NCBI GenBank assembly: GCA_037447655.1
Contig: JBBHKE010002682.1
Span: 113,034 to 177,033 of the forward strand
DNA from: Zygnema cylindricum
Taxonomy: Eukaryota > Streptophyta > Zygnematophyceae > Zygnematales > Zygnemataceae
Reading direction: 5' to 3'
DNA: 64,000 nt
Position numbers and translations under genes: made by a program. Positions 1,788-60,845 of the stretch are shown piece by piece. Within the stretch, counting starts at the first letter, position 1. Every line of letters starts with the position of its first letter. The notes below the pieces were generated by a model, which saw only the letters and a list, made by a program, of their open reading frames with translations, was not told the DNA's origin and searched no databases.

Positions 1788-2727
1788 TGTTGAAATTAAA
1801 AAGATTTCTTATGTATTTTCTAGGTTTTTTAAAAGTAATATAAAATGAGGAAGAAAAAGCAGAGGCAGCCTGCTTCTAACTTCTCTCTCTAGCCCCATAC
1901 TTGTCGTAGTCACTTGTGGCTGAAGAAGAAGCTAAAGCCATGGCTGCCTATGCTTCTCCTAAAGACAGAAGGCAGTCCTTTGTTAAACTTACCAAAAAGG
2001 TTAACAGACCCAGGATTTGATCCTGGTACCTATCGTTCGTCTGAATAGACCAGCGTCGTTATCATGTAGCCTAAAACGTGTGTCGAGATATATAGGGTAC
2101 GATAGCTACTTAAAGATGTACAAATAGGAAAGTTCATTTAACTGACAATCAGAATACAATCACATAGATATAGTTAGATATAATCACGTCTAAATGTACT
2201 GCTTGTATTTTAACGGCTATATATTACGGGCAATATCAATCGGACTGCAAAGGATGAAGCCGACATCACGGAATGGACGATTTGGCGGTTTGCGGTCTCA
2301 ACCACACCGGGTGACACGTAGCAACAAGACATTGGATGGCGGCATCTCCGGAACATACCATGGCGAACCCGGAAATGGCAAGCGTCATCTTCTTGGCCAT
2401 ATCGTACAATGGCCGTACAGAAAGAACTCTGGGCCAAGTACCTTTCTGTACTGTACACTGAATTGAATCGCTACGTACTTCAGTAGTAGAGGGATAAGAG
2501 AGGGGTTCATCTTTGACCATTGATAATTAACTGCTCAAGGGAGCAAATTCAACGATTTTTTTTGTGGCAGACTCAGGGGAGTCAGCTCCTCCAAGGGTGC
2601 AATTTGGTCAATCTGTATTTTGTCAAGGTGTCACCAATATTCAGACTAAGATCTAAGAACTAAGATTATCCTAGAGGTTTCTAGCAAGCTACCTTCTCTG
2701 AGTACCAATGGAGGTCTCAGAGTTGCA
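1788..2727 (+). repeat. 3' LTR of element K
   Basis: The LTR starts with TGTTGAAATT directly after the purine tract and ends GAGTTGCA. In order it holds the TATTTTCTAGG block, the conserved core around 1892-1950 (CATACTTGTCGTAGTCACT and GCCATGGCTGCC), an antisense tRNA-like module, and two hairpins. The hairpins are TGCTC/GAGCA at 2532-2545 and GACTC/GAGTC at 2570-2583. It ends with an in-LTR ATG (2709) that would start gag in a 5' copy. Confidence 0.88.
1994..2085 (-). other. Antisense tRNA-like module in LTR (K)
   Basis: Read on the minus strand, an A-box-like TTTTAGGCTACATGA is followed by a B-box-like GGATCAAATCC (2013-2023) and then TTTTT (1994-1998). That order and spacing match a type-2 Pol III promoter with terminator. 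No acceptor stem or CCA end forms, so it is tRNA-derived rather than a cellular tRNA gene. Transcription is not shown. Confidence 0.5.
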
Positions 2728-2868
2728 TTCCCTTCTTTTTCTCTCTCTCTCCTTCAATGACTACAACAAGCATGAGGGATAGAGAGGATAGGTGAAAGCA
2801 GGCTGCCTTATCTTTTTCTTTTAATTTTAGACTTGGAAAAAAACTTATAAATCTAGTGATTTTCAACA
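2728..2868 (-). repeat. Minus-strand LTR fragment
   Basis: This is the first part of a minus-oriented LTR. It carries the core AATGACTACAACAAGCATG, then CAGGCTGCC, and ends in TTTCAACA at 2868, the reverse complement of the LTR start TGTTGAAA. The rest of this LTR is not to its left, so it was either the target of element K or is truncated. Confidence 0.75.
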
Positions 2869-3180
2869 ACCTACATAGACATGCGTTGTCACTTAAAGCT
2901 CAGTACAAGTATTTTGGAAAGGCACGTACATCAACATACATATGTCAAACATCGAATGGGACAACGTAACTGCGACGCAGTTGGGACAACGCAGCTGTGA
3001 CATAGTTCAGAACAACGTAAATGCGATGTAGACAAAACAACGCAACTGGGGTTATGTTTGATATGGTCCGTACAGACAACGCAGCGGCGAAAATCATGAT
3101 ATGATCCAGTACATAATAACGCAGCCGCGGATAAAATGAATATGATTCTTTACAGTACAACGCACTGGGAATTGATACGG
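2869..3180. repeat. Degenerate CAACGCARC-motif repeats
   Basis: No gene is visible. From about 2960 to 3170 the motif ACAACGYARCTG, or close variants, recurs about eight times at irregular 20-40 bp spacing. This looks like an eroded minisatellite. Confidence 0.5.
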
Positions 3181-3717
3181 ATTTAATTAATGGAAGAGAT
3201 TTATGAAATGATCACAAGTGACTTAGCCGACAAGTGTTTATACAATCACTTAGTGTAGATTTTAGTAGTCCTGATTGTACTATGGTAGAATAGTTCGGCG
3301 GGATTGGGAATGTTTTGATCTTAGTGGTAGCTTAGTTTTTGACGTATTTCTTAGGTACAATTGCATCGGCGATACAACATAGAGTAGATACTCTCTGCGA
3401 CTATAAGACTTAGGACTTAGAACATTTTATGTATCCAGACTTCGAAGTAGTATAAGTGCAAACAGTTTATGGGAAACATTTGAGTATTATATCTTGAGTG
3501 TTGTCAAGTGAAGTGTATTAAAACTTTGGGAGTTGTCAGTGTTTATGCCGCTCTATATACTGATAGAGTTTTGTAAAGTTTGGATGCCTGTTTAAAATTT
3601 GGTGAACACTTGAAAACAGTTGTTTGGAAGGATTCTTAACAGCTTTTGAGAGTGTATCATGTCTACTTCTACTACTACTGGTGCTCCTCCATCTGCACCA
3701 GTGGCTGTAGAACAACA
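3181..3717 (+). repeat. LTR remnant of the B family, right end
   Basis: The right end reads ATGTCTACTTC at 3659 and finishes GAACAACA at 3717. This matches the in-LTR gag start and LTR terminus of element B (minus strand, 12746-12804). Upstream text such as GACTTAGGACTTAG resembles the B-family U3. Sequence after 3717 lacks the primer site, so this is a solo or truncated LTR. The left boundary is unclear. Confidence 0.55.
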
Positions 3718-3916
3718 TTATGATGCGTCGACGTCACTAATTTCAAAAAAACTCGCCATGGTTTCTTGATTTTGCTTTTTTGTCCTTTCTCACTATACTA
3801 TCTATCAAAATTTGCGTAAAGACATTACAAAGTAATATCTCTTATAGATATTTTATTTGATACTGTTGTTTCCGTTTTTTATTGCAAAAATTGTGAGATA
3901 CACGTGGTTGTGGGAG

Positions 3917-3918
<2 letters not shown>

Positions 3919-4000
<82 letters not shown>

Positions 4001-4109
4001 GAGAGAGAGTGGAGAGAGGGAGAGAGAGAGAGGAGGTGGAGAGAGGAGAGGAGGAGGAGAGAGAGGTGGAGAGAGGAGAGAGAGGGAGAGAAGGAGAGAG
4101 AGAGAGAGA

Positions 4110-4168
<59 letters not shown>

Positions 4169-4211
4169 AGAGAGAGAGAAAGAGACAGAGAGAGAGAGAG
4201 AAGGAGAGAGG
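3919..4211. repeat. (GA)n microsatellite
   Basis: About 290 bp of nearly pure GA dinucleotide with GGA and GTG interruptions. It produces long arginine-glutamate or serine-leucine open frames on both strands, which are composition artefacts and not genes. Confidence 0.97.
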
Positions 4212-4212
4212 C

Positions 4213-7615: not shown

Positions 7616-8784
7616 TGTTGATATTTGAGTATTTTCTAGGTCTATTAGGATAGAATTTGAGTATTTTCTAGGTCTATTAGGATAGAAAAAGAGCAGAGGC
7701 AGCTTGCCTCTAACTCCCTTCTCCAAGCCCCCACACTTGTCGTAGTCACTAAAGGCTGGATTGGGAGCTAGAGCCATGACTGCCTAAGCTCACTAGAGAA
7801 GACAGGGGTTGATTTAGGTAGATGTACCAAAAGGTACTTGACGGACCCAAGAATTGATCCTGGTACCTGCCGTCCGTCAAGTGACCCGTAGCCGGTAGCT
7901 ATGTCCGTTTAGTCTAGGACTAGTGCTAAGGTATATTGGGTTTGATATGTATATAAACATCTACACGTAGGATTTTCCATTTAACTAGATTACGGTTTAT
8001 CGGACATAGAAACAGTTGTACTATTAGTACTGGACAAAACAAATCGTACGGACATTTGTTTCGACGGTCCGTATTAAATACCGATATCAATCGGACGGCC
8101 GTGGTTAGCGTCGGCTTCGCGAAAAGGACAATTTGGCGGTTTGTAGACTTCGCCACTCCGGATGACACGTGGCAACATCATACAGGTTTACGGAATCTCC
8201 GGAACGAAAGACAACAAATCCAGATGTGACAAATGTCGCATAATGGCGACGTCGTACACTGTCCATACAAAAAGTACACCGTCATCTGTACTTTCTTGTA
8301 CGGTACAGTCCTGTGATTGGTCAGTACCTCAGTACTAGAATGTTTAGAGAGGGGTTTAGGACTTGGAATATTTTTGGGTAGGTAGCCGCCTCTCCGAGAG
8401 AGCATCTTGTATAAATGGCAAAATTTGGCCAGCAATAACTATTAACTCAGTTGACCAAATTCAGTGATTCTTTTTGCTGCGGACTCAAGGGAGTCCACGC
8501 TATACAGGGGTGTAGTCGGTCAAAGTGTTTGCCTGCTAGGGTGGCTGCACTTCTAAGGTAAAGTCAAAGTGGGTGAATGTGTCCAAATCTCATATTCTAA
8601 CTTTGCATTCTGTGGTGGAACTGAGCACACAGAAAGTCTTATTTCACAGTGGTGAAGCTGTAATGTGGTTCTGATTGTCAAAGGGTCAATCATTTGGGTT
8701 TATATAAACTTGGAGTCGACACTATCTAGATTAGCTTCTTTTGATCTGCGAATTCTGTTTGGCAATGGAGCCCATAGAATTTCA
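7616..8784 (+). repeat. Solo LTR inside RNase H, CTAAC duplication
   Basis: The main-family LTR starts TGTTGATATT and ends TAGAATTTCA. CTAAC occurs immediately on both sides (7611-7615 and 8785-8789), and the RNase H reading of element B continues across. A 33-bp tandem duplication (unit TTTGAGTATTTTCTAGG plus 16 bp) lies at about 7625-7690. The conserved core (CACTTGTCGTAGTCACT), an antisense tRNA-like module and the GACTCAAGGGAGTC hairpin are present. A TATAAA lies near 8411. Confidence 0.93.
7829..7920 (-). other. Antisense tRNA-like module in solo LTR
   Basis: On the minus strand an A-box-like AGACTAAACGGACATAG precedes a B-box-like GGATCAATTC and TTTT at 7829-7832. It is related to the modules in elements A, J and K. 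Confidence 0.42.
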
Positions 8785-16508: not shown

Positions 16509-17022
16509 TACACCGCGAATTGTTATTAGTGTCAAAGTTTAAATAGTGTTGACGAAAATTTAAGGTAATTGATGCTAAATAAGAATTTGATTTTTTTTTT
16601 CTAATTTGTAATAATGTATTCTAATTTCGGCATTATGCTAATTTGGGAACAGCAAAAATGGATTATTCACCGTACGATTATATACATTAATATATGTATC
16701 CGTACAAAATATTAGAAATCGTACGCCGTCGTGAAATTAAATATCCGTACATGTCAGACTAATTTACGTGTCAGAATAATCTCGTTTTTTGAGCGCACGT
16801 TCCCATGCGTGCGCGTCTGCTTTATTTCATTTTTTGTAAATCTTTCACTTGAAAAGGTACATTTATGTACGGTCTGACATAGAGCGTACACCACACTATT
16901 TAGATCTTATTGTACTTTCGTTCTTTACGCTATTTTTTACGGTACCTTAATTAAAGTAAAGGAAAAATTAAAATCATGTATCCTATTTAAGAAAAAAAAT
17001 CAAAATTTCAAGAACCCAAATT
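16509..17022. mobile_element. Truncated TA-family TIR element in Helitron
   Basis: The left terminus TACACCGCGAATTGTTATTAG and interior (TTTAAATAGTGTTGACG, TACATTAATATATG, GTACCTTAATTAA) match the complete copy at 58082-58623. The right TIR is missing: the match ends around ACCCAAATTA. Confidence 0.82.
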
Positions 17023-17030
17023 AATGATAC

Positions 17031-17654
17031 ATTACGCTATCCGTAATGAGGTCTGCACAGCGACCACGGCAATGTTACAATACCCCATCCGTACGGCGAT
17101 CTGCACAACGACGCTCGACAGTGTTACATTAGCCCATCCGTACGTCGATCTGCACAACGACGCTCGACAACGTTAAATTACGCCATCCGTACGGCGGTTT
17201 CCACAGCGACGCACGACAATGTTACATTACGCCATCTGTACGGCGATCTGCACAACGACGCACGGCAACGTTAAAATACGCCATCCATACGGCGGTCTGC
17301 ACACCGACGGTTGGCAATGTTAGATTATGCCATCCGTATGGCGGTCTGCACACCGACGGTTGGCAATGTAAGATTATGCCATCCGTACGCCGGTTTCCAA
17401 ACCGACGGGTGGCAATGTTAGGTTACGCCAACCATACGGCGGTCAACACACCGACGGTTGGCAATGTTAGAGTATGCCAGCCGTACGGTGGTCTGCACAC
17501 CGACAACTTGCAAAGTAAGATTACGCCATCCGTACGGATGTATGGGCAGCACCGTTACATTGTGCCAGCGGTACGGCGGTCCGTACTGCGGACGGTCGCA
17601 TGGCAGCGTATCATTGTGCCAGCCGTACTGCTGTCCGTAATGGGGACGGACAGA
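17031..17654 (+). repeat. 49-bp minisatellite, about 12 units
   Basis: Head-to-tail units approximate TTACATTACGCCATCCGTAC, GGCGGTCTGCACACCGACG, then CACGGCAATG, with 10-20% divergence and length changes in the last units. A further partial unit (GACGCACGGCAACG) sits left of the TIR insertion near 16500, so the array is older than that insertion. It lies wholly within the Helitron. Confidence 0.93.
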
Positions 17655-21912: not shown

Positions 21913-22984
21913 TGTTTGAAAAGTAATTATCAGGTCACTAGTTTATTTCCTTAACTCCAGATAAAAGAGAGAGAGAGTAGACGCCACTCTATGTTTATAC
22001 ACTTGTTGCAGTTACTGAGGCTTACGCAGCCATGGTTGTCATGAGGCAGTCAAGGAGACACACTAAGGAAGAACACAGATGTGCCTTTAATAAAACCGAA
22101 TTTGTGACCCTAGTGATTTGAACCTAAATCATTAATATAGTCATTCGCCTTAACCACTAAGGCGTTGACGAAACGATACATATATTGAGTTTGAATTGTA
22201 TATAAACGCAGTACTAATCAACATACTCCATTTCACGGATTATGAAACGAAATGACGTCGAATTTCAACGGACGCGATTAATTGCGGATTTTAGATCGGA
22301 CGGCTAATAATGGAGCCGAAGCACCGGAGTGGACATTTGGCGGTTTTCAAGCTAAACGTCAGTGGATGACACGTAGCAAGCCATGAGTGGACAACGGATA
22401 TTACGGGGGGAGCAACTACGGGTAGGAGCAGACACAAGTCAGCGGAGCGGCCATGCCGTACTATGGCATTTAAGAAGTACAACGGTGCCTATACCTTCTT
22501 GTACCTTACAGTCCTTTGATTGGCTAGGTACACTAGTAGTAGGTTCAGAGAGGGAACTTAGGACTTGGACAAGATTTAGGTAACCGCCTCTCTCCCAAAG
22601 TGCATCTGTATTTATAGGCCATCTTTGGCGAGCAATAACTTAATGCTCAGGGGAGCAAATTCAGTGATTCTTTTTGTTGCCCACTCAAGGGAGTCTAGGC
22701 TACAGAGGTGTGTAGTCGGTCAAAGTGTTTGCTTGCCAGGGTGGCAATATTTCTAAAGGAAATTCAAATTGAGGAATGTTGTCCAAAACACATGTTGAAG
22801 TTTTGCATTTTGTGGTGGAATTGAGCACAAGAAAAGTATTCTTTCATAGGGGTGAAGCTTTATTGGTGTTCTGACTGTCTGGGTATCAGCCATTTGGGTT
22901 TGTATTAACTTGGAGTCGGCACTATCTAGATAAGCTTCTTTGAAGCTGCAATTTCTGTGGGGGAATGGAGCCTATAAAATTACA
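21913..22984 (+). repeat. Solo LTR, (A/G)CAAT duplication
   Basis: It starts TGTTTGAAAAGTAATTATC and ends AAAATTACA. The flanking pentamers are ACAAT and GCAAT. It carries the core variant ACTTGTTGCAGTTACTGAGG with CAGCCATGG, an antisense tRNA-like module, TGCTCAGGGGAGCA and GACTC/GAGTC-type hairpins near 22650-22700, and an in-LTR ATG near 22965. It is the same subfamily as the LTR at 4957. Confidence 0.86.
22091..22170 (-). other. Antisense tRNA-like module in solo LTR
   Basis: On the minus strand TTAGTGGTTAAGGCG (A box, near perfect) is followed by GGTTCAAATC (B box, 22115-22124) and TTTT (22092-22095). Confidence 0.55.
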
Positions 22985-23095: not shown

Positions 23096-24086
23096 TGTCC
23101 TCCATTGGACTACAGAATACAGGAAGCCTCTAGATAGTATTTAACTAACCCACTTTAAGCCACGACCACTTCTGCCCAAGAAGGCAAACTGACAATTTGA
23201 CTGCACCCCTGTGTAGCCTGGACTCCCCTGAGTCGGTATCAAAAAGAATCACTGAAAACGGCTAACCAGGCGATAAGTTATGAGCCGGCAAAAATGCCAA
23301 TTTATACAAAGCTCTCTTAGAGAGAGGTGTCTATCTACCAAATATTTCCTAAGTCCTAAATCCCTCTCACAACCCCTATCTACTAAAGTACGAACCAATC
23401 GTATTACTGTAAAGTACAGAAAGGTACTATGGCCGATGTACTTTCTGTACGGCCGGTGTACGACAAGGCTCTTGAGTGGACGTGTGTCATTTTTTCACTT
23501 GTCCGTATTTCCTCCGGAATTCCCGCGACCGAATGTCATCCTTCCACGCCGCGCCACGTCATGCCACGTCCATAAAATCCAAAGTGACCATTCCGCGATC
23601 TCGGCGACGACGTGCGCCGTCGGATTAAATCCGACATTAAATGTCGACCGTTCAAAGTGTCTGTTTCATTTGTTTCGTGCGAAATGACGTTCGCACTAAA
23701 CCTTAACAAGTTCTATGTCCGTTTCGTTTCATATTCCAGTTAGATCATTTCGGTACTATACAACAGTTTATATATAAATGAAACCCTACATCATCTAACA
23801 GACTTCTACGACAGACTGGTTAGAGCTAACGGCTACGCCGCGCTCTACCGGTCGGGGGTTCGAGTCTTGCCGGACTCAACCTTTTGTTGAGAGTGACTTA
23901 AGTCACTCTTTAGTCCTTCCTATGGAGCTGAGGCAGCCATGGCTCCATCGCTCTCTCTCTCCTTCAGTGACTACAACAAGTATGGGGGAGAGAGAGAAGA
24001 GATGGAGGCAGGCTGCCATCATTTCTTATATATGTTTCCGCTAATTTATTTTAAACTAGAAAATACAAAAACTACTTATTTCAACA
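23096..24086 (-). repeat. 3' LTR of element C
   Basis: Plus-strand boundaries are TGCAATTCTG and TTTCAACA. The purine tract follows at 24087-24100 (complement of AAATAAGGGGAG). Contained are a tRNA-like module on the plus strand and the core CAGTGACTACAACAAGTATG near 23965. Confidence 0.9.
23806..23886 (+). other. tRNA-like module (antisense to C)
   Basis: GACTGGTTAGAGCT (A box, 23814-23827), GGTTCGAGTC (B box, 23857-23866) and TTTT (23882-23885) have tRNA-gene spacing. The T-arm stem is only partly paired. Confidence 0.6.
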
Positions 24087-27116: not shown

Positions 27117-27284
27117 CTGAGGAATATAGTGTTAAATTTGTGTATTTTCTAGGTCTGAATTTATTCTGTGTGTTTGTCAGATGGTCTTGTCTAAGTCATC
27201 CATACTTGTCGTAGTCACTGGAAGAAAGAGATAGCCATGGCTGCCCCCATAGTCAAAAAGAAGAAACAGGCAAAAACAGGCAGG

Positions 27285-27385
27285 AAAACTTATAGTTGGC
27301 CAATATGCTGCTCTAAACCGGATTTGAACCTGGGTCTATGGTTTGCTATGTAGACGTAAGCCTTATCCAATAAGGCGTTACCGAA
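27285..27385 (-). other. Antisense tRNA-like module, D 5' LTR
   Basis: On the minus strand TATTGGATAAGG (27361-27372) precedes GGTTCAAATC (27321-27330), with TTTT at 27285-27288. The D 3' LTR has the same module. Confidence 0.5.
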
Positions 27386-37736: not shown

Positions 37737-37749
37737 AAAATAAGGGGAG

Positions 37750-38785
37750 TGTTGAAATTAATTGATTTCTAGAGTATTTTCTAGGTTTGAATATGTTTGT
37801 ATAAAAGGAAAAGAAAAGGACGGACAGCCTGCGTCCACCTCCTCTCTCTAGCCCCCATATTTGTTGTATTCATTGAAGGATAAAGAGGGTGGTTGATCCA
37901 TGGATGCCTTAGTTCAACAGGCAGCTATTTTTAGTAGGTTACTAAAAATATAATTGACGGACCAGGGATTTGATCCCGGTACCTACGGTTCGTCAAGTTG
38001 GCCGATAGCGGTCATCTTTAGCCTAATAGACTAGGACCAATGCTAAATGCTATGGTATGTGATAAGTATATATTTATTTCCGAAGGATTAAATCCATTTA
38101 ACTGCAACTGTATACGGAGTACATAGATACAATTTTGAAAAGTACGTAGTACGATACTAATTCGAAACGGATACCACGCATTTTGTTTAGACAGCGAAAC
38201 AAATATCGCCCAAGTATTTATAACGGCTAAGATTGCATTTCGCGTATAATCCAACGGCGCACATCATCGCCGAAATCGCGGAGTGGTCACTTTGGCGTTT
38301 TGTGACGTGGCATGACTTGGAGCCACTTGGAGAGATGACATTCGGTCATAGGAATTCCGAGGAACGTACAAACGAGTGAAAAGCGGACACGCGTCCGCTT
38401 AAAGCCTTGTCGTACATAGGTCGTACAAAAGGTACACCGGTAGTAGTACTTTTTGGTACGGTACAGTAATCTAATTGGTCCGTACTTTAGTAGATAGAAG
38501 TTATTAGAGAGAATTATGACTTAGAAAATTTTGGTAGGAAGTCACCTCTCCCTTTGAGAGTTTGTACAAATTGGCATTTTTATTGCCTCATAACTTATCG
38601 CCTGGTTGGGCGTTTTCAGAGATTTCTTTTTCTACAGACTCAAGGGAGTCCAGGTTGCACAAGGGTCTAGTCTGATTGTCTGCTTGTTTACTTCGGTAGC
38701 AGTGGTTTCCATTGAAAGTGGGTTAGTTAATAACTATCTAGAAGCTTCCTGTATTCAATAGTCCAATGGAGGACACAGAATTACA
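37750..38785 (+). repeat. 3' LTR of element A
   Basis: TGTTGAAATT to AGAATTACA, after the purine tract AAATAAGGGGAG (ends 37749). It carries the core variant CATATTTGTTGTATTCATT, a tRNA-like module and the two hairpins (38602-38650). Confidence 0.93.
37944..38040 (-). other. Antisense tRNA-like module, A 3' LTR
   Basis: The minus strand reads GTCTATTAGGCTAAAGATG (A-box region), GGATCAAATCC (B box) and TTTTT, as in the 5' LTR but with a better A box. Confidence 0.55.
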
Positions 38786-38981: not shown

Positions 38982-39987
38982 TGCAATTTTGTGTCCTACA
39001 TTGAACCACAGAATACAGGAAGCCTCTAGATAGTATTCAACTTACCCACTTTAAGCCACAACCACTGCTGTCCAAGAAGGCAAAATGACAGTTTGACAGC
39101 TTCCGTATGCAGCTTGGACTCCCCTGAGTCCGTAGGAAAAAGAATCACTAAAAAACGGCCATTCACCCGATAAGTTATGAGGCAGTAAAAATGCCAATTT
39201 GTACAAACTCTCAAAGGGAGAGGTGACTACCTACCAGAATTTTCTAAGTCCTGATTCCCTCTAATAACTTCTATCTACTGAATTACATACCAATCAAATT
39301 ACTGTACCATACCAAAAAGTACTACTGCCGGTGTACGTTTTGTACGGCATATGTACGACAAGGCTATTAAGTGGACGCGTGTCCGTTTTTCACTCGTCCG
39401 TACTTTCCTCGAAATTCCCATGACCGAATGTCATCTCTCCACGTGGCTCCAGGTCATGCCACATCACAAAACGCCAAAGTGACCATTCCGGAATCTCGGC
39501 GAAGACGTATGCCGTTGGATAAGAACCGCCATTAAATGTCGTCCGTTGAAACAAATGTTAGATTCATTTGTTTCGTGCGGGATTCAGTTCTCACTGAATT
39601 TAACCTGTTCTATGATGTTACATTTACATTTATGTTTAGCGGATTACGGGACGTAACATACTTTAAATATGAGTCACACCCTATATACGCTAGCGAACAT
39701 CTACGACAGACTGGTTAGAGCGGACGGCTACGCCACGCTCTACCGGTCGGGGGCTCGAGTCCTGTTGGACTCAACCTTTTTGTAGAGAGTGACTTAAGGT
39801 CACTCTCTAACCCCGTCTATGGAGCTGAGGCAGCCATGGCTCCATCACTCTCTCTCTCCTTCAGTGACTACAACAAGTATGGAGGTAAGAGAGAAGAGAT
39901 GAAGATAAGCTGCCTACATGTTCCTTTTTTCACAAATATATTAAGACCTAGAAAATAACAAAAAACTAAAAACTATTTATTTCAACA
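38982..39987 (-). repeat. 5' LTR of element C
   Basis: Plus-strand boundaries TGCAATTTTG and TTTCAACA. It matches the LTR at 23096-24086 along its length. The core CAGTGACTACAACAAGTATG is near 39863. Confidence 0.9.
39702..39781 (+). other. tRNA-like module, C 5' LTR
   Basis: ACTGGTTAGAGCG (A box), GGCTCGAGTCC (B box, 39752-39762) and TTTTT (39777-39781) occur with tRNA-like spacing. Confidence 0.58.
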
Positions 39988-40084
39988 ATACAAACTGTAT
40001 CTATGTCCACATATCGCGTTTAATGAAATAGCCTCCGTGTCAATCTTTATTTAACTATCAAACCCTACATCCTATAATCTTAAT

Positions 40085-40175
40085 CTTAGACTAATTGGCT
40101 AAGGCTGTCGACTACGGCGGCTCTGATGGTCGACAAGTACCAGGTTCAAATCCCGGGTCCGTCAATTACAATTTT
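40085..40175 (+). other. tRNA-like module in LTR remnant, unit 1
   Basis: ATTGGCTAAGG (A box), GGTTCAAATCC (B box, 40143-40153) and TTTT (40172-40175). GTCGAC repeats could pair as an arm. This is one of the best-preserved modules. Confidence 0.6.
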
Positions 40176-40286
40176 GGTAAATCTACCAATCTAATGTCTG
40201 TCCCTATCTGATAGCATAGGCGGCCATGGCTCTATCTCCCTCTCCAACTTTTAGTGACTGCGACAAGTGTGTTCAAATTTATCATT

Positions 40287-40370
40287 AATCTAGACTTGTA
40301 GGTTAAGGCTATCGACTAATTTGACGGGCGGCGGGAACCCGGATCAAATCCCGGGTCCGTCAAATATTTT
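40287..40370 (+). other. tRNA-like module in LTR remnant, unit 2
   Basis: TGTAGGTTAAGGCT (A box), GGATCAAATCC (B box, 40341-40351) and TTTT (40367-40370). Confidence 0.55.
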
Positions 40371-40543
40371 GGTTACTCTATCGAGATTTGCCTCCCTGTC
40401 CTCTTTTGACAGCCTAGGCAGCCATGGATCTAACTCCTCCTCAAGTCTTCAGTGACTGCGACAAGTGTGGGGACTTCAGTGAAGAGTTAGAAGCAAGCTG
40501 TCATTGTTTTGGCTTTTATTATAGAATTTCTAGACCGATAAAA

Positions 40544-41552
40544 TGTTAAAATTAGTAGTTTTATTTGGTATTTTCTAGGTCTGAATTTAGTACAAATAAG
40601 AAAAAGAAAAAGACGGACAGCCTGCCTCCGCCTCCTCTCCCTTCCCACCATACTTGTCGTAGTCACTGAGGGATAGAGAGGGTGGCTGAGCCATGGCTGT
40701 CCTAGCTTAAGCAAGCAGGGCTAAAGAGTGACTTATGTCACTCTCAACAAAAGGTTGAGTCCGGCAGGACTCGAACCTCCCACCGGCAGAGCACGGCTTA
40801 GCCGTTAGCTCTAACCAGTCTGTCGTAGGAGTTCGTTGAGATACATTAGGTTTGATTATTATTTATACAATGTTGCGTGTATGAATTCAATTAACGGAAT
40901 TACAAACGGACGAACATGGAACCAAGTATTATATAGTGCGAACATTATCTCGTACAAAAACAAATGAATCGGACATTTGTTTTGACGGCGGACATTTAAT
41001 ATTGAATCTGATCCGACAGCGTACATCAATGCCTCGATCGTGGAATGGTCACTTTTGACGTTTATGGACGTGGCGTGACGTGGCGCCACGCGGAGGGATG
41101 ACATTTGGTCGCAGGAATTCCGGCGAACATAAGAACAAGTGAAAAGTGGACACGCGTCCACATAATGGCGTTGCCGTACATGGGCCTTACAGAAAGTACA
41201 TCGGCCATAGTACTTTTTTGTACCCTAGAGTGATCTGATTGGTTCGTACTTCAATAGATAGGGGTTGTGAGAGGGATTTAGGACTTAGAGAATATTGGTA
41301 GATAGGAACCTCTCTCCCTTTGAGAGTTTGTATAAACTTGGCATTTTTGCCGACTCATAACTTATCGGCTGGTTGGCCGTTTTCACTGATTCTTTTTGCT
41401 ACAGACTCAGCGGAGTCCAGGCTACAGAAGGGTGCAGTCAAATTGTCAGTGTGACTTTTAGGGCAGCACTGGTTGTGGCTTGAACTGGGTTAGTTAAATA
41501 TTATCTAGAGGCTTCCTATATTCTGTAGTCCAATGGAGGACACAGAATTGCA
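40544..41552 (+). repeat. 5' LTR of element F
   Basis: TGTTAAAATT to GAATTGCA. It has the core CATACTTGTCGTAGTCACT, an antisense tRNA-like module, TATAAA near 41331, the hairpin CGGC-TGGTTG-GCCG (41366-41379), GACTCAGCGGAGTC (41404-41417) and the gag ATG at 41533. Confidence 0.92.
40749..40830 (-). other. Antisense tRNA-like module, F 5' LTR
   Basis: On the minus strand GACTGGTTAGAGCT, then GGTTCGAGTCC (perfect B box, 40767-40777) and TTTT (40749-40752). This is the clearest Pol III-like promoter in the set. Confidence 0.65.
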
Positions 41553-44500
41553 GGTTATGGGCCCACCCTCTAGGGTGCCCACCTTCAATGGATCTGGGTT
41601 CATCTATTGGGAAGCCATGATGATGGGAGCTTTGTGTGAAAAACGATACTGGGGTATCGTCCGAGGACAAGTGAAACATCCACCTTCGGGAACTCTACCA
41701 GGATTTGGTGGAGTAAGGTTTCCTGTAGCAACGGCTGCCTCAGCGGAGGAGGCAGATGATAGAGACAGCACTGTGTCCGAAAAAGGGGAAAGGGAAGGAG
41801 ACACCCCTCACTCTTATTGCCACAGTACCGGAGCGACGACTGTGAAGACCACGGAGAACGATACTCAAATGTGGGAGGACGTAAACATGGCTGCAAAGAA
41901 CTTGATTCTCAAGCACCTCACTCAAGCTTTGGCCACTTCGCATCTTCACATTTACAAGGCCGAGGAGTTGTGGGTGAGTTTGGTGGAGATTTATAGAGCT
42001 GGAACCATTCAGGAGCTCTAGTTGGCTGAGCAAAAGCTAGTGAGTTGCACTTACAAAGGAGGAAAGATGTTAGATTACTATAATGATCTTTCTTGTTTGT
42101 ATATGGAGATGGAAAGTGTCGGGTGGACAGGTACAATAAAAATGAAAGTTAACACTCTTATCATGAAGTTACCAGATGAGTTCGAGAACATAGTGTATCG
42201 AGTACAGGAAATGCCTGATAGTTCATGGAAATGGAACACAGTGGTCAGGATGATACTTGTGTAGGAAAACACAATAGAAATTAGGAGAGGAGGAAAAACA
42301 TTCAAGCTCTAGCAGCAGGAGGGGACCGAAGGAGGAAGGACCCGAAGAAACTGTATAAAGGGGAAAGAGATCAGCCTAGAGGACCGAGGCCCCCAAATGG
42401 TATTTGTCATTTTTGCAAAAAGCAGGGACACTTCATCGCAGATTGTGTCAAGCTATCGGAGCTGAGTCTCCAAGAGAACCGTGGAGGGGGTTCTTCCGGA
42501 GGGAAGAAAAAGGCACTTGTTGTTACAAAGGTGACACGAGAAACCGAGGATGAGTCTTTTGGGGGGATGGGGGGCTTCTTCTTGACGAGAATTTGGAGGA
42601 GGAGGAGATCCCTCGGAGAAAAAAAAGTGCCTTCAGAGAAATTCGGGAAGCTCCACAGGAATGATGGATCATCGACTCAAGTGCATCCATGCATATGTGT
42701 CGTGATAAGAAACTCTTCACTAAGCTAAGAAAGATCCCTACTGTAGCGATAGAGTGTGGGGATAGGAGAGTGGTTACTACAGATCTAGTGGGATCAGTCG
42801 ATCTAAAAGTCTTAGTGGAGGGTAAGACTTCTATATTTACATTCTCAAGTGTACTCTACATTTTTTAGTTGAGTAAAAATCTTGTTTTTACTTCTATGTT
42901 AGATGACAAAGAGTTTGATACCTTCACTAGAAAGGGAGTCTTTACAGCTAAGTATGGGGATGAAGTTTACTTCACAGCAGATAAGGGTAGCCTAGGAATG
43001 TTTAGGCTTAACCTGAGTAATGAAAAGAAGAATGCTTACTATGTAGGTGTTCGTAAGACATTGATGATTTGGCATAAGCGGTTGGGGCATGTACAATTTG
43101 ATAGGTTGAGGGAAATGAAAAAGCTTAGGGTAGGAGAAGGAATTCAGTATGGGGATAATGAAATAATGGATGATTGTAGTGGCTGTGCTCAAGGTAAGGC
43201 TCACAGACTTCCTTTTCCCAAAGCCGCCACATATAGAGGTGAGAAAGTATAATTTTTGGTCCACATAGATATTTGGGGACCTACAAAAGTACCTTCGGTT
43301 GGAGGAAAAAGGTTTATGATGACAATAACAGATGACTGGTCTAGATACTCTAGAGTTTACTTTCTAAAAACAAAGTTTGAAGCATCAACTTATTTCAAAG
43401 AATATAGAGCAAGGAGTGAGAAGTTGCATGAAACCCCCATTAAGACGATAAGGAGTGATAATGGGGTGGAATATACCTCTAACCAGTTTGAGGAATATTT
43501 GAGAGATGAGGGAGTGTAGCACCAGAAAACTGTACCATATAACCCGGAACAAAATGGGGTAGCTGAGAGGTTGAATCGAACACTAGGAGATAGTGTACGC
43601 AGTATGTTGGCCGACAAGAAAATAGGAAAGAGATTTTGGGCAGAAGCAATGAATTGTGCCAATTACATTAAGAATAGAGTCTTTACCTCAGCTGTAAAGG
43701 GAGTGACACCTTATAAGAGATGGGTTGGAAGGAAACCATATATCTCACACCTTAAAGTATTCGGTAGCCAAGTTTACAGTCTTGACACGGATAGGAAAAA
43801 ACTGGAAACTAGATGCTAAGGAAAAACCTGGATACTTTGTGGATATGACGAGGATGTTAAGGGATATAGAGTCTATGACTTAGCTAAGAAAGATATCATT
43901 CTGGTCAAACACTAAGTTGTCATGGATGAAGGGAAGTCATTTGACCCCTTCAAATATACAAAGAAGATAAGAATCAGATTTTTGTCCGAAAGTGAGGAGA
44001 ACGCGGTCGTTCCCAAAAGGGACATGAGTGAAACCGTGATTGCAGATTCAGGGGAGATCCAAGATACAGGGGACTCATCGGAAACCTCACATACTCCTAT
44101 GGAATTCGAGGAGATAGAAAAAGCGAGACAAGAACCGGCTTCCATGGAAAGGGGAGCCAATGAGACAGTGAGAAGAAATCCAAGACTTTCATCTATTCCA
44201 GCTTCAGAGTTTGAGGGAGGAAGGAGGAGCAACAAACACATACAAGAAAAACAAGCCGCTCATAAGGTAACTAAGCTATCTCACCCAGATGAGCTTCAGT
44301 CTTACTCGGAGGCAGTGAATAGTCCAGAGAAAGAAAGATGGAATAGAGCCATAAATGATGAGATAGCTTCTATCATGGAAGCAAATACTTGGGAACTAGC
44401 GGATTGCCCTCCAGACAAAAAACCTATTAGGTGTAAATGGGTATTTAAACTAAAACTGAACCCAGATAATACCATTGAGAGATATAAGGCTCGATTGGTA

Positions 44501-45486: not shown

Positions 45487-46366
45487 CGCCATATTTAGAA
45501 AGTGGCAGTTTTTGCAGTTAAGGGTATTTTGGCTAAAATGATGCCAAGGACTAGATTTGTACCTGTAAACTCTAGATTCTTTGTAGCCTAACGCCTTAAC
45601 CATTAAGGCGTTACGAAATGATACACGTGACGGGTTTCATAAATATATAAACATTAACGAAACAGCTAATTAACAGCAGACTAACCAAAATGAGCAATTT
45701 CTGCATGTACGCGAATCTGAACCGTGTAAAATATGTTTTGATCGGACGGCCGGCATTATAGCCGCCACGCGAAGTGAGCTTTCGGCGGCATACGGATATA
45801 GCCTGCAAGAATGTCATCGTCTCTAAAACCTTGATAGTTAGGAAGCTCAAAGTCATCAGAATTTTTTTACTCAAATCTGATTTTTACTGACTTTGTATAT
45901 TTGAAGGGATCCACAGACTTTCCTTCATCTATAACTACTAGATGGCTTCCGATATGACAGGTGTCACTTTGTAGACCTTGTCGTACAATAGTTGTACAAT
46001 AAGTACATCGCCCATTGTACCTTCTTGTACTTTATAGTGTTCCTATTGGACTAGGGTTTAATAGTAGGTAGTCGTGAGTAGGCAGACCGAGACTTAGTAA
46101 TATTTAGGTACCTCTCTCTCTAAGAGAGCTTGTAACTATAAAGGTCATCTTTGACCAGCCATAACTTACTGCTCGGGTGAGCAAATTCAGTGATTCTTTT
46201 TGCGTTTGACTCAGGGGAGTCTTTTCCTCACAAGGGTGAGAGAGGTCAGAATATTTATGTGCCTGGGCGGCGCTTATTCAGCGGGAAAGTAGAAGGGGCA
46301 AATATTATCCTAGAGGCTTTACATAGGCTGCTCATTCTGTGGGTCAATGGAGACCACAGAATTTCA
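45487..46366 (+). repeat. 5' LTR of G, truncated, with integrase patch
   Basis: The LTR lacks its first part (it begins CGCCATATTTAGAAAG). At 45803-45951 about 60 bp of normal LTR, including two CACGTGG-type motifs still present at 51437-51495, are replaced by antisense integrase sequence (VVIDEGKSVDPFKYTK on the minus strand). TATAAAG near 46137, hairpin TGCTCGGGTGAGCA near 46170 and the gag ATG 46347 remain. Confidence 0.85.
45534..45615 (-). other. Antisense tRNA-like module, G 5' LTR
   Basis: On the minus strand TTAATGGTTAAGGCG (A box), then GGTACAAATC (decayed B box) and TTTT (45534-45537). Confidence 0.48.
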
Positions 46367-50987: not shown

Positions 50988-51921
50988 TGTTGAAAAGAGG
51001 TAATTAATAGTTCACTTCCCTATTTTAGTTGAGATAGAAAAAGCGAGACAAGAACCGGCTTCCATGGAAAGGGGAGCCAATGAGAAAGAGAGTGAGGATC
51101 AAAGGCGCGCCATGGCTGCCGCCATATTTAGAAAGTGGCAGTTTTTGCAGTTAAGGGTATTTTGGCTAAAATGATGCCAAGGACTAGATTTGAACCTGTA
51201 AACTCTAGATTCTTTGTAGCCTAACGCCTTAAACATTAAGGCGTTAAGAAACGATACACGTGATGGGTTTCATAAATATATAAACATTAACGAAACAGCT
51301 AATTAACAGCAGACTAACCAAAATGAGCAATTTCTGCATGTACGCGAATCTGAACCGTGTAAAATATGTTTTGATCGGACGGCCGGCATTATAGCCGCCA
51401 CGAGAAGTGAGCTTTTCGGCGGCATACGGATATAGCGTCACGCGGTGCCACGTGGCGCCACATTATTTGATACCGGAGAAGATGGGAGGAGGAACCATGG
51501 CTTCCGATATGACAGGTGTCACCTTGTAGACCTTGTCGTACAATAGTTGTACAATAAGTACATCGCCCATTGTACCTTCTTGTACTTTATAGTGTTCCTA
51601 TTGGACTAGGGTTTAATAGTAGGTAGTCGTGAGTAGGCAGACCAAGACTTAGTAATATTTAGGTACCTCTCTCTCTAAGAGAGCTTGTAACTATAAAGGT
51701 CATCTTTGACCAGCCATAACTTACTGCTCGGGTGAGCAAATTCAGTGATTCTTTTTGCGTTTGACTCAGGGGAGTCTTGTCCTCACAAGGGTGAGAGTGG
51801 TCAGAATATTTGTGTGCCTGGGCGGCGCTTATTCAGCGGGAAAGTAGAAGGGGCAAATATTATCCTAGAGGCTTTACATAGGCTGCTCATTCTGTGGGTC
51901 AATGGAGACCACAGAATTTCA
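50988..51921 (+). repeat. 3' LTR of G, with captured integrase piece
   Basis: TGTTGAAAAG to AGAATTTCA. Positions 51031-51085 are identical over 55 bp to the integrase tail of element F (44111-44165) and replace the usual core (CATACTTGTCGTAGTCACT is absent; CATGGCTGCC remains at 51111). Downstream features match the D LTR, with TATAAAG near 51693 and hairpins near 51725 and 51763. Confidence 0.9.
51168..51255 (-). other. Antisense tRNA-like module, G 3' LTR
   Basis: On the minus strand TTAATGTTTAAGGCG, GGTTCAAATC (51187-51196) and TTTT (51168-51171). The 5' copy has a better A box and this one a better B box. Confidence 0.5.
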
Positions 51922-52874: not shown

Positions 52875-52887
52875 AAAATAAGGGGGG

Positions 52888-53895
52888 TGTTGAAATTAGT
52901 AGTTTTATTTGGTATTTTCTAGGTCTGAATTTAGTACAAATAAGAAAAAGAAAAAGAATGACAACCTGCTTCCGCCTCCTCTCCTTCCCACCATACTTGT
53001 CGTAGTCACTGAGGGATAGACAGGGTGGCTAAGCCATGGCTGTCCTAGCTTAAGCATGCAGGGCTAAAAAGTGACTTATGTCACTTTTAACAAAAGGTAA
53101 ATTCCGACAAGACTCGAACCTCTGACCGGCAGAGCACGGCTTAGCCGTTAGCTCTAACCAGTCTGTCGTAGGAGTCCGTTGAGATACATTAGGTTTGATT
53201 ATTATTTATACAATGTTACGTGTATGTATTCAATTAACGGAATTACAAACGGACGAATATGGAACCAAGTATTATATAGTGCGAAAATTATCTCGCACGA
53301 AAACAAATGAATCGGACATTTGTTTTGACGGCGGACATTTAATATCGAATCTGATCCGACGGCGTACATCAATGTCGCGATCGCGGAATGGTCACTTTTG
53401 ACGTTTAAGGACATGGCGTGACGTGGCGCCACGTGGAGGGATGACATTTGGTCGCCGGAATTTCGGCGAACATAAGGACAAGTGAAAAGTGGACACGCGT
53501 CCACTTAATGGCATTGCCGTACATGGGCCGTACAGAAAGTACATCACCCATAATACTTTTCTGTACCCTACATTGATCTGATTGGTTCGTACTTCAATAT
53601 ATAGGGGTTATGAGAGGGATTTAGGACTTAGAGAATATTGGTAGATATGAACCTCTCTCCCTTTTAGAGTTTGTATAAACTTGGCATTTTTGCCGACTCA
53701 TAACTTATCGGCTGGTTGGCCGTTTTCAATGATTTTTTTTGCTACGGACTCAAGGGAGTCCAGACTGCACAGGGATGCAGTGAAATTGTCAGTGTGACAT
53801 TTTTGGCAGCAGTGGTTGTGGCTTGAAGTGGGTTAGTTAAATACTATCTAGAGGCTTCATGTATTCTGTAGTTCAATGGAGGACACACAATTGCA
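52888..53895 (+). repeat. 3' LTR of element F
   Basis: TGTTGAAATT to ACAATTGCA, matching the F 5' LTR throughout. TAAAA duplication follows. Confidence 0.92.
53092..53172 (-). other. Antisense tRNA-like module, F 3' LTR
   Basis: On the minus strand GACTGGTTAGAGCT, GGTTCGAGTC (53111-53120) and TTTT (53092-53095). Confidence 0.62.
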
Positions 53896-56779: not shown

Positions 56780-56787
56780 CCCGTGGG

Positions 56788-58081: not shown

Positions 58082-58623
58082 TACACCGCGAATCGTTATT
58101 AGTGTCAAAGTTTAAATAGTGTTGAAGAAAATTTACCATAATTGATGCTAATTAAGAATTTGAAAATTTTCAAAAAAAAGGTGTATTCTAATTTCGGCGT
58201 TTATGCTAATTTGGGAACAGCAAAAATGGACGATTCACTGTACGATTATATACATTAATATATGTATCCGTACAAAATATTATAAATCGTACCCCGTCGC
58301 GATTTAAAATATCCGTACATGCTATACTAATATACGTGTCAGACTAATCCCGTTTTTTTAGCGCACGTTCCTATGCGTGCGCGTCTGATTTAATTCATTT
58401 TTTGTAAAATTTCACTTGAAAAGGTACAGTTATGTATGGTCAGATATCGACCGTACACCACACTATTTATATTTTATTGTACTTTCAGGCTTTACTTTTT
58501 TTTGTACGGTACCTTAATTAACGTCAAGGAAAAATTAAAATCATTTATCCTATTTGAAAAAAAAAATCAAAATTTTAAGAACCCAAATTAGTGACTTTGA
58601 CACTAATAACGATTCGCGGTGTA
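58082..58623. mobile_element. TIR element, TA family, complete (542 bp)
   Basis: TA, then CACCGCGAATCG with a further 16 bp of perfect inverted match (TTATTAGTGTCAAAG), to CGATTCGCGGTG and TA. It is non-coding and is the reference copy for the truncated one in the Helitron. Confidence 0.92.
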
Positions 58624-58689
58624 GTTTTTCGGTTTTGGCCATGCCACCCCTTTTGTACCCCGGACTCAGATGGCTTACCATCGTGCTTT

Positions 58690-58850
58690 TTAATTTATCT
58701 AGCCCAGTATTGACGTTAATTAAGGTACCGTACAAAATAAAGTAATGCCATAAAGTACAATAAAATATAAATAGTGTGGTGTACGGTCGATGTCACACCG
58801 TACATAACTGTACCTTTTCAAGTGAAAATTTACAAAAAATGAATTAAGGG
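58690..58850. repeat. Inverted partial copy of the adjacent TIR element
   Basis: TTAATTAAGGTACCGTAC..CTTTTCAAGTGAAA..AATGAATTAA is the reverse complement of about 58385-58520 inside the neighbouring element. The pair forms a long interrupted palindrome. Confidence 0.8.
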
Positions 58851-58894
58851 TGAAGTTCCAGTGGCGCCACGCAGATAGTTAATAACTTCAATTT

Positions 58895-59255
58895 TTTAGC
58901 ACCGACAAGCTTAACTTCAAATCTTCACTTGCGTACCATGTACATGCGTGAACTTTTATATTTTTTGCAGACGCCAGTTTGTACGCCAACTCATTTTTTA
59001 GGGTTTTTTGTTTTCGAACATGACGAAAGTCCTTTGAGAGAAATAGTGTGACGAACAAAAGTTACCGAAAATAGCTTGACGAAAGAATGTTACAAAATTT
59101 CCTTTTTATTTTCGGTTGTATTTTGGAAAGCGCGTGTCATGTGCAAATCTTAAGATTTTTCGTCGGTTTTCCATCATGACACGTAGCTTAATCGTCCAAC
59201 ATGTCACAAATTATTTTTTGTTGTATTTGCCAACCCACCTCCTCGAGGTGGGTTG
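58895..59255 (+). repeat. Dispersed repeat, copy 2 of pair
   Basis: Direct copy of 54790-55190, cut at the start of element J. It ends in a perfect hairpin CAACCCACCT-CCTCG-AGGTGGGTTG (59231-59255). Confidence 0.8.
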
Positions 59256-59542
59256 ACATTTGTACAAAAGGTCAACTTTGACCCTCCATAACTTACTGCT
59301 CAGGGGAGCAAATTCAGAGATTCTTTTTGCTATCGACTCAGGGGAGTCTTGCCTTCACAAGGGTGAAGGTGGTCAGAGTTTTTGTCTGCCAGGGTGGCAG
59401 TTATTTTTGCTTAAACACAAAGGGGTCAGGATTATCCTAGAGGCTTCTTAGAAGCTGTCCACTCTGAGGACTTATGGAGGTCTCAGAGTTTCATACTGCT
59501 GCTCCTCCACCTGCACCGGTGGTCATATAACAACAAGAGGGA

Positions 59543-59788
59543 GTGCATGGAGTATTTTGTGATAATCAAGCTGCCATTACAATCGCAGCTAATCCAAAAC
59601 ATCATTTCAAGGCTAAGCATATGGACATAAGATTGAGTTTTGTGAGACAAAAATTTGAGAATAAAATTGTGAATCATGTATATAAATATGATGAGGAAAT
59701 GGTGGTTGATATGATGACAAAACCAGTGCCTTCTCCCAACTTAAAATATTGCAGAGAAAAATGTGGACTAAAACTAAAGTTAAAGTGA
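59543..59788 (+). pseudogene. RNase H C-terminus of element J
   Basis: The 81-codon fragment contains VFCDNQAAITIAANPKHHFK, HMDIRLSFVRQKFENKIVN and DMMTKPVPSPNLKYCREKCG, the last part of copia RNase H. It has no upstream domain. Confidence 0.85.
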
Positions 59789-59807
59789 GACTAGAAAATA
59801 AGGGGAG

Positions 59808-60845
59808 TGTTGAAATTACTAGATTTATTGAGTATTTTCTAGGTCTAAATATATCAGTATTAAAAGGAAAAGAAAAGGGCGGACAGCCTGCCTCCACCTC
59901 ATCTCTCTAGCCGCCATACTTGTTGTAGTCACTGAAGGATAGAGAGAGTGGTTGAACCATGGCTGCCTTAGCTCAACATGCAGTTGTTTTCAGTAGGTTA
60001 CTAAAAATATACTTGACTGACCAAGGATTTAATCTTGGTACCTGTCGTCCGTCAAGTTGGCCGGTAACAGTCAGCTTTATCCTATTAGTCTAGGACCAAT
60101 GTTAAATGCTATAGGGTTTGATAAATATTTAATTACTTAGAAGTGAACTAATACATTTAACTAAAATTGTATACGACATGCATAGATACAGTTTTGTAAA
60201 GTACGGAGTACAGTACGGTTTCGAAACGGATGCTGCGCATTTTGTTTCGACAGCGAAACAAATATTGCGCAAGTATTTATAACGGCTGAGATTTCATTTT
60301 GGTTCTTATCCAACGGCGCACATCATCGTCGAGATCCCGGAGTGGTCACTTTGGCATTTTGTGACATGGCATGACCTGGCGCCACGTGGAGAGATCACAT
60401 TTGGTCGCTGGAATTCCGAAGAATATACGGACGAGTAAAACAAGCGCACGCGTCCACGTAACAATCTTGTCGTACATTGGTCGTACAAAAGGTACACGGG
60501 CAGTAGTATTTTCTGGTTCGGTACAATAACATGATTGGTCTGTACTTTAGTAGATAGGAGTTATTAGAGAGAATTCGGACTTGGTGTTTTTGAGATACAG
60601 TCACCTCTCCCCTTGAGGATTTGTATAAAATAGGCATCTTTGCCACCCCATAACTTATCGGTCGGTTGGCCGTTTTCAGTGAATCTGTTTGCTACGGACT
60701 CAGGGGAGTCCAGGCTACACAAAAGAGCAGTGAGACTGTCAGTTTGCCTTCTTAGAAAACAGTGGTTGTTGCTTGACGTGGGTTAGTTAAAAACTATCTA
60801 GAGGCTTCCTGAATTCTGTAGTCTATTGGAGGACACAGAATTGCA
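59808..60845 (+). repeat. 3' LTR of element J
   Basis: TGTTGAAATT to AGAATTGCA. It holds the core CATACTTGTTGTAGTCACT, a tRNA-like module, the hairpin CGGT..GCCG near 60659 and GACTCAGGGGAGTC near 60698. It is closest to the LTRs of element A. The right flank is ACGAG. Confidence 0.9.
60003..60100 (-). other. Antisense tRNA-like module, J LTR
   Basis: The minus strand has GACTAATAGGATAAAGCTG, a decayed B box (AAGATTAAATCC) and TTTTT (60003-60007). Confidence 0.42.

Follow-up and report, generated by a model that had tools for sequence, protein, structure and literature searches.

Long terminal repeats of Copia elements in Zygnema cylindricum contain a conserved antisense unit that is likely of RNA polymerase III type

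Promoters for RNA polymerase III (Pol III) have been described within the long terminal repeats (LTRs) of retrotransposons. The non-autonomous Cassandra elements contain the Pol III promoter of a small-RNA gene, derived from 5S ribosomal RNA (rRNA), within their LTRs and drive their own element RNA from it (PMC10853983, PMC10886601). Helenus and TRIMp3 are non-autonomous terminal-repeat retrotransposons in miniature (TRIMs) of 311-1263 bp without genes, whose LTRs contain tRNA-like Pol III promoters and which are thought to be transcribed by Pol III themselves (Kojima 2024, PMC10886601); the same source states a resemblance to part of a transfer RNA (tRNA) for 'not a few' of the LTRs in Repbase. 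Here, a 64-kb stretch of the Zygnema cylindricum genome (G000:C2014:113034-177033; assembly total 352.8 Mb), hereafter called the window, was analysed, in which the LTRs of Copia retrotransposons contain tRNA-like modules antisense to the element. A preliminary description of these modules had named Cassandra as the nearest parallel and had known of no Copia family with tRNA-like antisense modules; in view of the tRNA-like LTRs of Helenus, the choice of Cassandra as nearest parallel is outdated.

The modules resemble Helenus in having tRNA-like A and B boxes in the LTR, the boxes being kept while the tRNA fold mostly is not (PMC10886601). The B box was clearly present; the A box is recognised by position and conservation and is weak by match. 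Further likenesses are the 5-bp target duplications of fungal and plant Helenus and the 3′-truncated initiator-Met tRNA primer type of fungal Helenus (PMC10886601). In contrast, the elements studied here are autonomous Copia elements of ~6.4 kb with LTRs of ~1 kb, gag-pol domains and a covarying hairpin. In addition, the Helenus promoter appears, judging from the paper, to be sense to its element, whereas the exact B boxes reported here are antisense; that paper uses neither the word 'antisense' nor the word 'opposite' (PMC10886601). Because the TRIM definition and the orientation both fail, the units were not filed as Helenus. They share with Cassandra the location of a Pol III-type promoter in the LTR but are tRNA-like (type 2) and antisense, and scanning the window with Rfam gave no match to 5S rRNA.

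Bovine and simian foamy viruses produce Pol III-directed stem-loop RNAs, the bovine virus from its non-coding U3 region (PMC7693620). These cassettes are similar in that short stem-loop RNAs directed by Pol III arise from the U3 of an LTR, and differ in belonging to animal retroviruses with a studied microRNA (miRNA) function, so the likeness is one of working and not of membership (PMC7693620). Short interspersed elements (SINEs) with a tRNA head likewise have A and B boxes, a degenerate tRNA head, a body and a T-run, but at least 30 of 39 hairpin copies considered here are parts of LTRs. Foamy-virus cassettes are reportedly oriented in sense, and the tRNA-miRNA RNAs of gammaherpesvirus 68 are said to consist of a tRNA-like head followed by one or more stem-loops and to be made by Pol III; unlike the present units, they belong to a DNA virus and do not lie in LTRs. 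In the titles and abstract openings among the matches listed by a limited literature search, no autonomous LTR retrotransposon was found to bear a tRNA-like unit in antisense. New here are the autonomous Copia host, the antisense orientation and the attached hairpin.

Layout and box content of the antisense unit

The unit is illustrated by one LTR, in which the head (B box, TTTT and A-box-like text) occupies LTR positions ~205-280:

40544-41552, plus strand: Copia LTR of 1009 bp with TG...CA ends and a type I antisense unit, delimited by pairwise LTR alignments and its ends
40860-40867, minus strand: TATA-like box TATAAATA, 42 nt before the A box
40850-40855, minus strand: TCAAAC motif, 30 nt before the A box
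40815-40825, minus strand: A-box position CGACAGACTGG, a poor fit to TRGYNNARBGG, yet kept between copies
40767-40777, minus strand: B box GGTTCGAGTCC, an exact match to GGTTCRANYCY
40749-40752, minus strand: first T-run TTTT, 14 nt past the B box
40725-40744, minus strand: type I inverted repeat AGAGTGACATAAGTCACTCT of 20 nt with arms of 8 bp, past the first T-run
40612-40704, minus strand: conserved RNA hairpin with loop GTGACTACGACAAGTATGG, 101 bits with covariance model R1 (see below)
40601-40611, minus strand: second T-run TTTTTCTTTTT, adjoining the hairpin

Read antisense to the element, the order is a TATA-like box, ~31 nt to the predicted start, the A-box position, the B box, a first T-run, a small inverted repeat, a hairpin of ~90 nt and a second T-run. 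This anatomy, its conservation and the covariation of the hairpin are established, and the unit is a real, conserved feature of the whole genome. That it is a Pol III unit is, judging from the sequence, likely; that it yields a functional non-coding RNA (ncRNA) is plausible.

Modules had been reported at 17 positions of the window, here called slots and named by these positions, and LTR alignments and orientations confirmed that modules are present there, antisense to the elements. In addition to slot 40749 (the LTR above) and the decayed slot 5114, the following copies were recorded:

Slot 1994: B box 2013-2023, minus strand, one mismatch; hairpin 1860-1951, minus strand
Slot 7829: B box 7850-7860, minus strand, one mismatch; hairpin 7694-7787, minus strand
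Slot 22091, type II: B box 22114-22124, minus strand, one mismatch; no match to the hairpin model
Slot 23806: B box 23857-23867, plus strand, exact; LTR 24086-23086 (minus); hairpin 23929-24021, plus strand, 104.5 bits
Slot 27285, type II: B box 27320-27330, minus strand, exact; shorter hairpin 27172-27248, minus strand, 33.8 bits
Slot 30347, type II: B box 30382-30392, minus strand, exact; shorter hairpin 30234-30310, minus strand, 33 bits
Slot 32569: B box 32591-32601, minus strand, one mismatch; hairpin 32444-32536, minus strand
Slot 37944: B box 37966-37976, minus strand, one mismatch; hairpin 37819-37911, minus strand
Slot 39702: B box 39752-39762, plus strand, one mismatch; LTR 39987-38982 (minus); hairpin 39826-39918, plus strand
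Slot 40085, type III: B box 40143-40153, plus strand, exact; hairpin interrupted, partial match of 13.5 bits at 40252-40271
Slot 40287: B box 40341-40351, plus strand, one mismatch; hairpin 40414-40506, plus strand
Slot 45534, type II: B box 45553-45563, minus strand, one mismatch; no match to the hairpin model
Slot 51168, type II: B box 51186-51196, minus strand, exact; no match to the hairpin model
Slot 53092: B box 53110-53120, minus strand, exact; LTR 52888-53895; hairpin 52956-53047, minus strand
Slot 60003: B box with two mismatches; LTR 59808-60845; hairpin 59878-59970, minus strand, 91 bits
Outside the 17 slots: hairpin copy 2718-2811, plus strand, 45.2 bits, with a degraded left arm, in an LTR fragment of minus orientation

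The B box was searched with the published Pol III consensus GGTTCRANYCY. Seven exact matches in total were obtained on the two strands of the window, all of them in slots and all antisense to their LTRs, where 0.86 were expected and none of 100 shuffles reached seven. An A box, a B box and a T-run had been claimed for all 17 slots. The B box was recovered with at most one mismatch in 15 of them and TTTT at 14-18 nt past the B box in 14, while the A box is weak. The slots that fall short are 5114, without a recognisable B box or TTTT, 60003 with its two B-box mismatches, and 27285 and 30347, which are without TTTT at the usual place. A generic weight-matrix scan for A box, B box and T-run gave 20 matches with a score of at least 15, whereas 40 shuffles averaged 9.2 and never exceeded 19; 11 of these 20 matches lie, by our reading, within slots.

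A TTTAWATA-like box (at most one substitution) begins 41-42 nt before the A box in 23 of the 35 units with an A-box match; it lies 40 and 37 nt upstream in two further units and was not present in ten of the 35. In a separate comparison of the units, ten of 42 were left unplaced. The spacing is 42 nt in types I and II and 41 nt in type III, because the A box of type III is one base longer. In type-2 Pol III genes box A lies 11 bp from the start and the TATA-like element at -31/-24, i.e. ~42 nt apart (PMC10137851), and the fixed TATA-like geometry makes the A-box position credible. Most units also have a TCAAAC, TCACA or TGAAAC motif 29-30 nt before the A box. In plant tRNA genes, upstream TATA motifs are found in 22-32% and CAA motifs in 78-82% (PMC11700998), a pattern with which the upstream motifs agree only loosely. 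The text between the boxes measures 36-37 nt in types I and II (29 nt in one type II unit) and 38-46 nt in type III. The type-2 geometry of TATA-like box, A box, B box and T-run was found, with an inter-box text that is partly longer.

Conservation was profiled on 12 of 13 type I rows and on 13 type III rows (two more were too short and four had been excluded beforehand). In type I, identity amounts to 0.93 in the A box, 0.82 in the B box and 0.92-0.93 in the head end and inverted repeat, compared to 0.54-0.74 just upstream. In type III the contrast is less marked, the loop reaching 0.86 at a mean of 0.64. Four features support a putative antisense Pol III-type unit: the B box, the distance to the terminator, the constant spacing of the TATA-like box and these conservation peaks.

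The downstream hairpin and its genome-wide occurrence

The feature list of the preliminary description was incomplete, since the fixed TATA-like box, the covarying downstream hairpin and the second T-run had been missed. The hairpin has a length of ~90 nt, lies on the same strand ~100 nt past the B box and has the loop GTGACTRCRACAAGTRTGG. In the form GTGACTACRACAAGTATGG the loop had 14 window matches at up to three mismatches, where 0.05 were expected. A loop search in 20 arbitrary 10-kb stretches gave 17 matches, one of which (L019) was taken as chance. From 41 loop matches 39 were kept after L019 had been dropped and one exact duplicate merged, and the hairpin alignment of 29 rows omits ten of the 39, whose arms are broken, short or divergent. 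Among the 39, a B-like match (at most two substitutions, a loose test) was found in 38, and TTTT follows it in 31 of these 38, compared to 16% of control windows.

The consensus structure comprises 31 pairs and was derived from 19 copies, all from outside the window. Changes on both sides were observed in 11 of the 31 pairs, while slid controls gave 3-7 and shuffles 6.9, with 8 of 500 shuffles reaching 11, and double-change cells numbered 41 compared to 15.0 in shuffles (0 of 500). The covariance model R1, built from the 19 non-window rows of the alignment, identified 13 window hairpins at E<1e-5 with a best score of 104.5 bits; 12 of these lie in the 17 slots, and R1 hairpins are antisense wherever the LTR orientation was set. 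Eight weaker matches were also obtained, seven of which represent these stems in the opposite strand; the eighth is the interrupted copy at 40252. The type II units (five slots) retain the B box and the TATA-like box, and an R1 match in a shorter form was found in 27285 and 30347 only. At L014:6400-6700 the hairpin region is doubled around a poly-C tract, and at L023 ~550-762 (minus) the B-box/minihelix part of the head occurs twice in tandem within one LTR.

Regarding the strand, the consensus fold energy is -30.8 in antisense and -12.0 in sense, and the antisense fold is the more stable one in 18 of the 19 copies (and in 18 of an initial set of 24 copies). A T-run of at least four follows the hairpin in 28 of the 39 loop matches and an A-run in 7 of 39, while control windows in the upstream LTR gave 16% and 21%; a stem-loop after a promoter and then a T-run is also the arrangement of Pol III pri-miRNA cassettes. 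Within the structure derived on the antisense strand, the 29 aligned hairpins contain 77 G-U and 14 A-C combinations.

In the whole genome, the 21-nt loop motif has 1,475+1,459 = 2,934 exact copies, compared to 4+1 = 5 for the reversed pattern, and the head motif GACTGGTTAGAGCT has 476+502 = 978, compared to 0+1. Pairing of heads with loops was assessed on a sample of 36 head sites (C4-C80) and 100 loop sites (C1-C85) among the matches listed. For 13 of the 36 head sites a listed exact loop lies within 1 kb, always on the same strand and 151-162 nt away; the remaining 23 are without a listed loop within 1 kb, exact matches being required on both sides. In IMG/VR the loop motif occurred in three records with one identical sequence and without this hairpin. 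Among the genomic stretches, the first 10 kb of a 118.6-kb contig (L022) have 24% GC, about a quarter N and simple repeats, and may be of other origin.

Proposed working of the unit and competing explanations

An even chance is given to the explanation that the LTR modules are antisense type-2 Pol III units with a structured hairpin RNA, for which we infer transcription, termination, read-through and function from the DNA text. The U3 of autonomous Copia LTRs would carry a compact type-2 unit running antisense to the element, with the tRNA-like head acting as promoter and not as tRNA. Bound to the boxes, TFIIIC would position TFIIIB at the TATA-like box, whereupon Pol III would be recruited. 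In the LTR 40544-41552, transcription is predicted to start near 40836 and to stop at the TTTT at 40749-40752, giving a short RNA of ~88 nt. An RNA of 80-110 nt up to the first T-run, as had been proposed in the preliminary description, is plausible in this respect, and the conserved hairpin suggests that a longer product matters too, namely a read-through RNA of ~230 nt ending past the hairpin at the second T-run (40601-40611). The hairpin, probably kept as RNA structure, would most likely regulate the element as an RNA, whether by binding a protein, by being processed into small RNA or by base-pairing with the U3 of the element's own genomic RNA; U3 lies at the 3′ end of that RNA, so that the antisense product would be complementary to it there. 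Conservation of the loop points to a bound protein or a tertiary contact. The TATA-like box, nearly a palindrome, possibly serves as sense TATA box as well, which would couple both directions. A wider claim, which we hold tentatively and with less confidence, is that an autonomous Copia lineage encodes an antisense Pol III structured ncRNA in thousands of copies, selected on boxes, spacing, loop and pairing, whose TATA-like box would double as part of the sense promoter, making the two transcripts potentially mutually exclusive.

If true, Pol III promoters in LTRs would extend from tiny parasites such as Helenus and Cassandra to full autonomous retrotransposons, with the promoter turned round to yield a separate antisense RNA. 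This would offer a direct handle on copy-number control or silencing evasion of the Copia family and a cellular parallel to the LTR-borne Pol III RNA cassettes of foamy viruses. The loop and stem yield exact, testable predictions.

Several observations weigh against this explanation. One-mismatch B boxes number 33 in the window compared to 24.5 expected, and 8 of 100 shuffles reach 33; the B-box excess therefore rests on exact matches, because this total barely tops expectation. A lack of excess over shuffled sequence had been named beforehand as refuting; an excess was found for exact B boxes and was modest for the A-box string, which occurs at up to two mismatches in 13 of 17 slots compared to ~45% of random stretches, and at up to one in 5 of 17 compared to 7%, the slots being related copies, not independent, and several of the best matches lying away from the A-box position used. 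The box spacing of type III is mostly above the 30-40 nt quoted for type-2 genes. Identity in the A and B boxes of type III (0.71 and 0.73) falls within the 0.45-0.77 found elsewhere outside the hairpin, and the outer LTR parts of type I are likewise 0.73-0.87 identical. The near-palindromic TATA-like box may serve a sense Pol II promoter instead, and the first TTTT, if efficient, would end the RNA before the hairpin. Slots 22091, 45534, 51168 and 5114 gave no hairpin match to R1. The structure used in the covariation tests was derived on the antisense strand from the same 19 copies, the cells are not independent because the copies are related, and of the five covariation measures one showed no excess, namely the number of further pair types (30 vs 29.9 in shuffles). 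When pairs were picked on Watson-Crick columns only, the G-U:A-C ratio was 65:42, with p 0.03 by rows and 0.10-0.31 by cluster; lacking significance by cluster, this test does not bear the strand claim, which depends instead on the fold energies and the T-runs. ARAGORN found no tRNA genes in the window or in 20 other stretches, and for the head in slot 40085 the nearest RNA family, tRNA (RF00005), matched 40087-40156 (plus strand) with 15 bits compared to a cutoff of 29 bits.

The RF00005 match spans model positions 8-63, from the A box to the T arm and excluding the acceptor stem; RF00005 is not among the matches listed for L009:6250-6530. The head is not a functional tRNA gene. Three sequence types had been noted in the same LTR slot, which holds for the text as such, but types I-III and II-III turned out to be related by alignment of the inter-box text (I-III: z up to 8.0 against letter shuffles, 60% of 168 pairs at p<0.05; II-III: z up to 5.4, 29% of 70 pairs at p<0.05), while none of 60 pairs of types I and II reached p<0.05. 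Because of these alignments three separate tRNA captures are disfavoured, and a single ancestral module that diverged while boxes and spacing were kept appears likelier. Two candidate structures of the head were not used as evidence: a type III cloverleaf (19 copies; 7 of 26 excluded from the core alignment), consisting of a B-box minihelix with few compensatory pairs and a small consensus energy (-1.9 antisense, -4.0 sense), and type I stems, which have equal consensus energy on both strands (-31.1, -31.3) and hardly vary.

A captured SINE head had been suggested as one reading. As an origin this is possible; as free SINEs at least 30 of the 39 hairpin copies do not qualify, since an LTR-start motif lies within 150 nt downstream and they therefore belong to LTRs. 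In the corresponding explanation, a tRNA-headed SINE inserted antisense in an ancestral LTR is copied with the LTR as a fossil passenger without a present role. The SINE-like order of head, body and T-run and the lost tRNA fold of the head agree with it, and Kojima derives Helenus from SINE insertion into LTRs (PMC10886601); a decaying passenger would however not be expected to show peaks of conservation in the A box, the inverted repeat and the loop, and the compensatory stem changes and the TATA-like spacing fixed across diverged types also disfavour it, so that we consider it unlikely, although the best of the competing explanations. Next in rank, and unlikely too, is a role at the DNA level, in which TFIIIC/TFIIIB sites act as boundary, modulator of the sense promoter or integration landing pad and the RNA product is irrelevant. 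The B box is the best-matching part of the unit, Ty1/Ty3-type integration near Pol III genes is reportedly known, and one window LTR sits, by our reading, in the U3 of another LTR upstream of its antisense unit. Such a role leaves the RNA-level covariation of the hairpin and the second T-run unexplained, and of 18 stretches taken as LTR flanks, one or more of which are in fact internal, only four had a match among seven reference LTRs; for one of the four this was its own reference stretch alone. Self-targeted integration was not claimed, these junctions being too few.

A special case of the Pol III explanation, which we rate lower again, is a pri-miRNA-like gene giving RNAs of ~21-24 nt against host or element transcripts. 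Its layout would resemble that reportedly found in the gammaherpesvirus 68 RNAs. It is also similar to the U3 Pol III miRNA cassettes of foamy viruses (PMC7693620). The best sub-cutoff Rfam match is a miRNA precursor (30.1 bits vs 76), but the arms are low-complexity CT/GA, and in type III conservation is higher in the loop than in the arms, contrary to what is usual for miRNAs. Least probable of all appears an action of the hairpin in the sense genomic RNA (U3 start, transcript 3′ end), e.g. in packaging, with incidental antisense boxes: the stem does exist on both strands and the Watson-Crick-only test by cluster does not separate them, but the B boxes are antisense, the sense consensus fold is far weaker and T-runs after the antisense hairpin far outnumber A-runs.

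Host elements and neighbouring sequences

Copia elements crowd the window, and Retrotran_gag_2, Pol_BBD or RVT_2 domains were found above cutoffs in three of four proteins scanned. LTRs whose ends were read start with TGTT, finish with TTGCA or TTACA and measure ~1,000-1,040 bp (e.g. 40544-41552 and 37750-38785). One element was checked for target duplication and TG...CA ends:

32375-38785, plus strand: complete Copia element with 5′ LTR 32375-33408 and 3′ LTR 37750-38785; CTCCG on each side as 5-bp target duplication
33409-33423, plus strand: stretch GGTTATGGGCCCACC directly 3′ of the 5′ LTR

This stretch is presumably a primer-binding site for an internal part of initiator-Met tRNA; a self-encoded primer is unsupported. 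For Drosophila copia and Ty5, work on internal initiator-Met priming is among the references of PMC10886601. The gag frame apparently has its ATG within the final LTR bases and crosses the LTR end and the putative primer-binding site (41533-41567, 33389-33423); the frames beginning at 33389 and 46347 have MEDT/METT..QVMGPPSRVP in common. No relatives of the reverse transcriptase piece were found in IMG/VR. The relatives of pol are mostly 43-48% identical among the best 120 of 7,934, and their names, where given, are those of plants and oomycetes. The region 38982-41552 is a cluster of LTRs within LTRs, with four modules in ~1.1 kb and both LTR orientations. Outside the LTR units, at 17016-17554, an array of nine 147-nt copies with a spacing of 49 bp is located.

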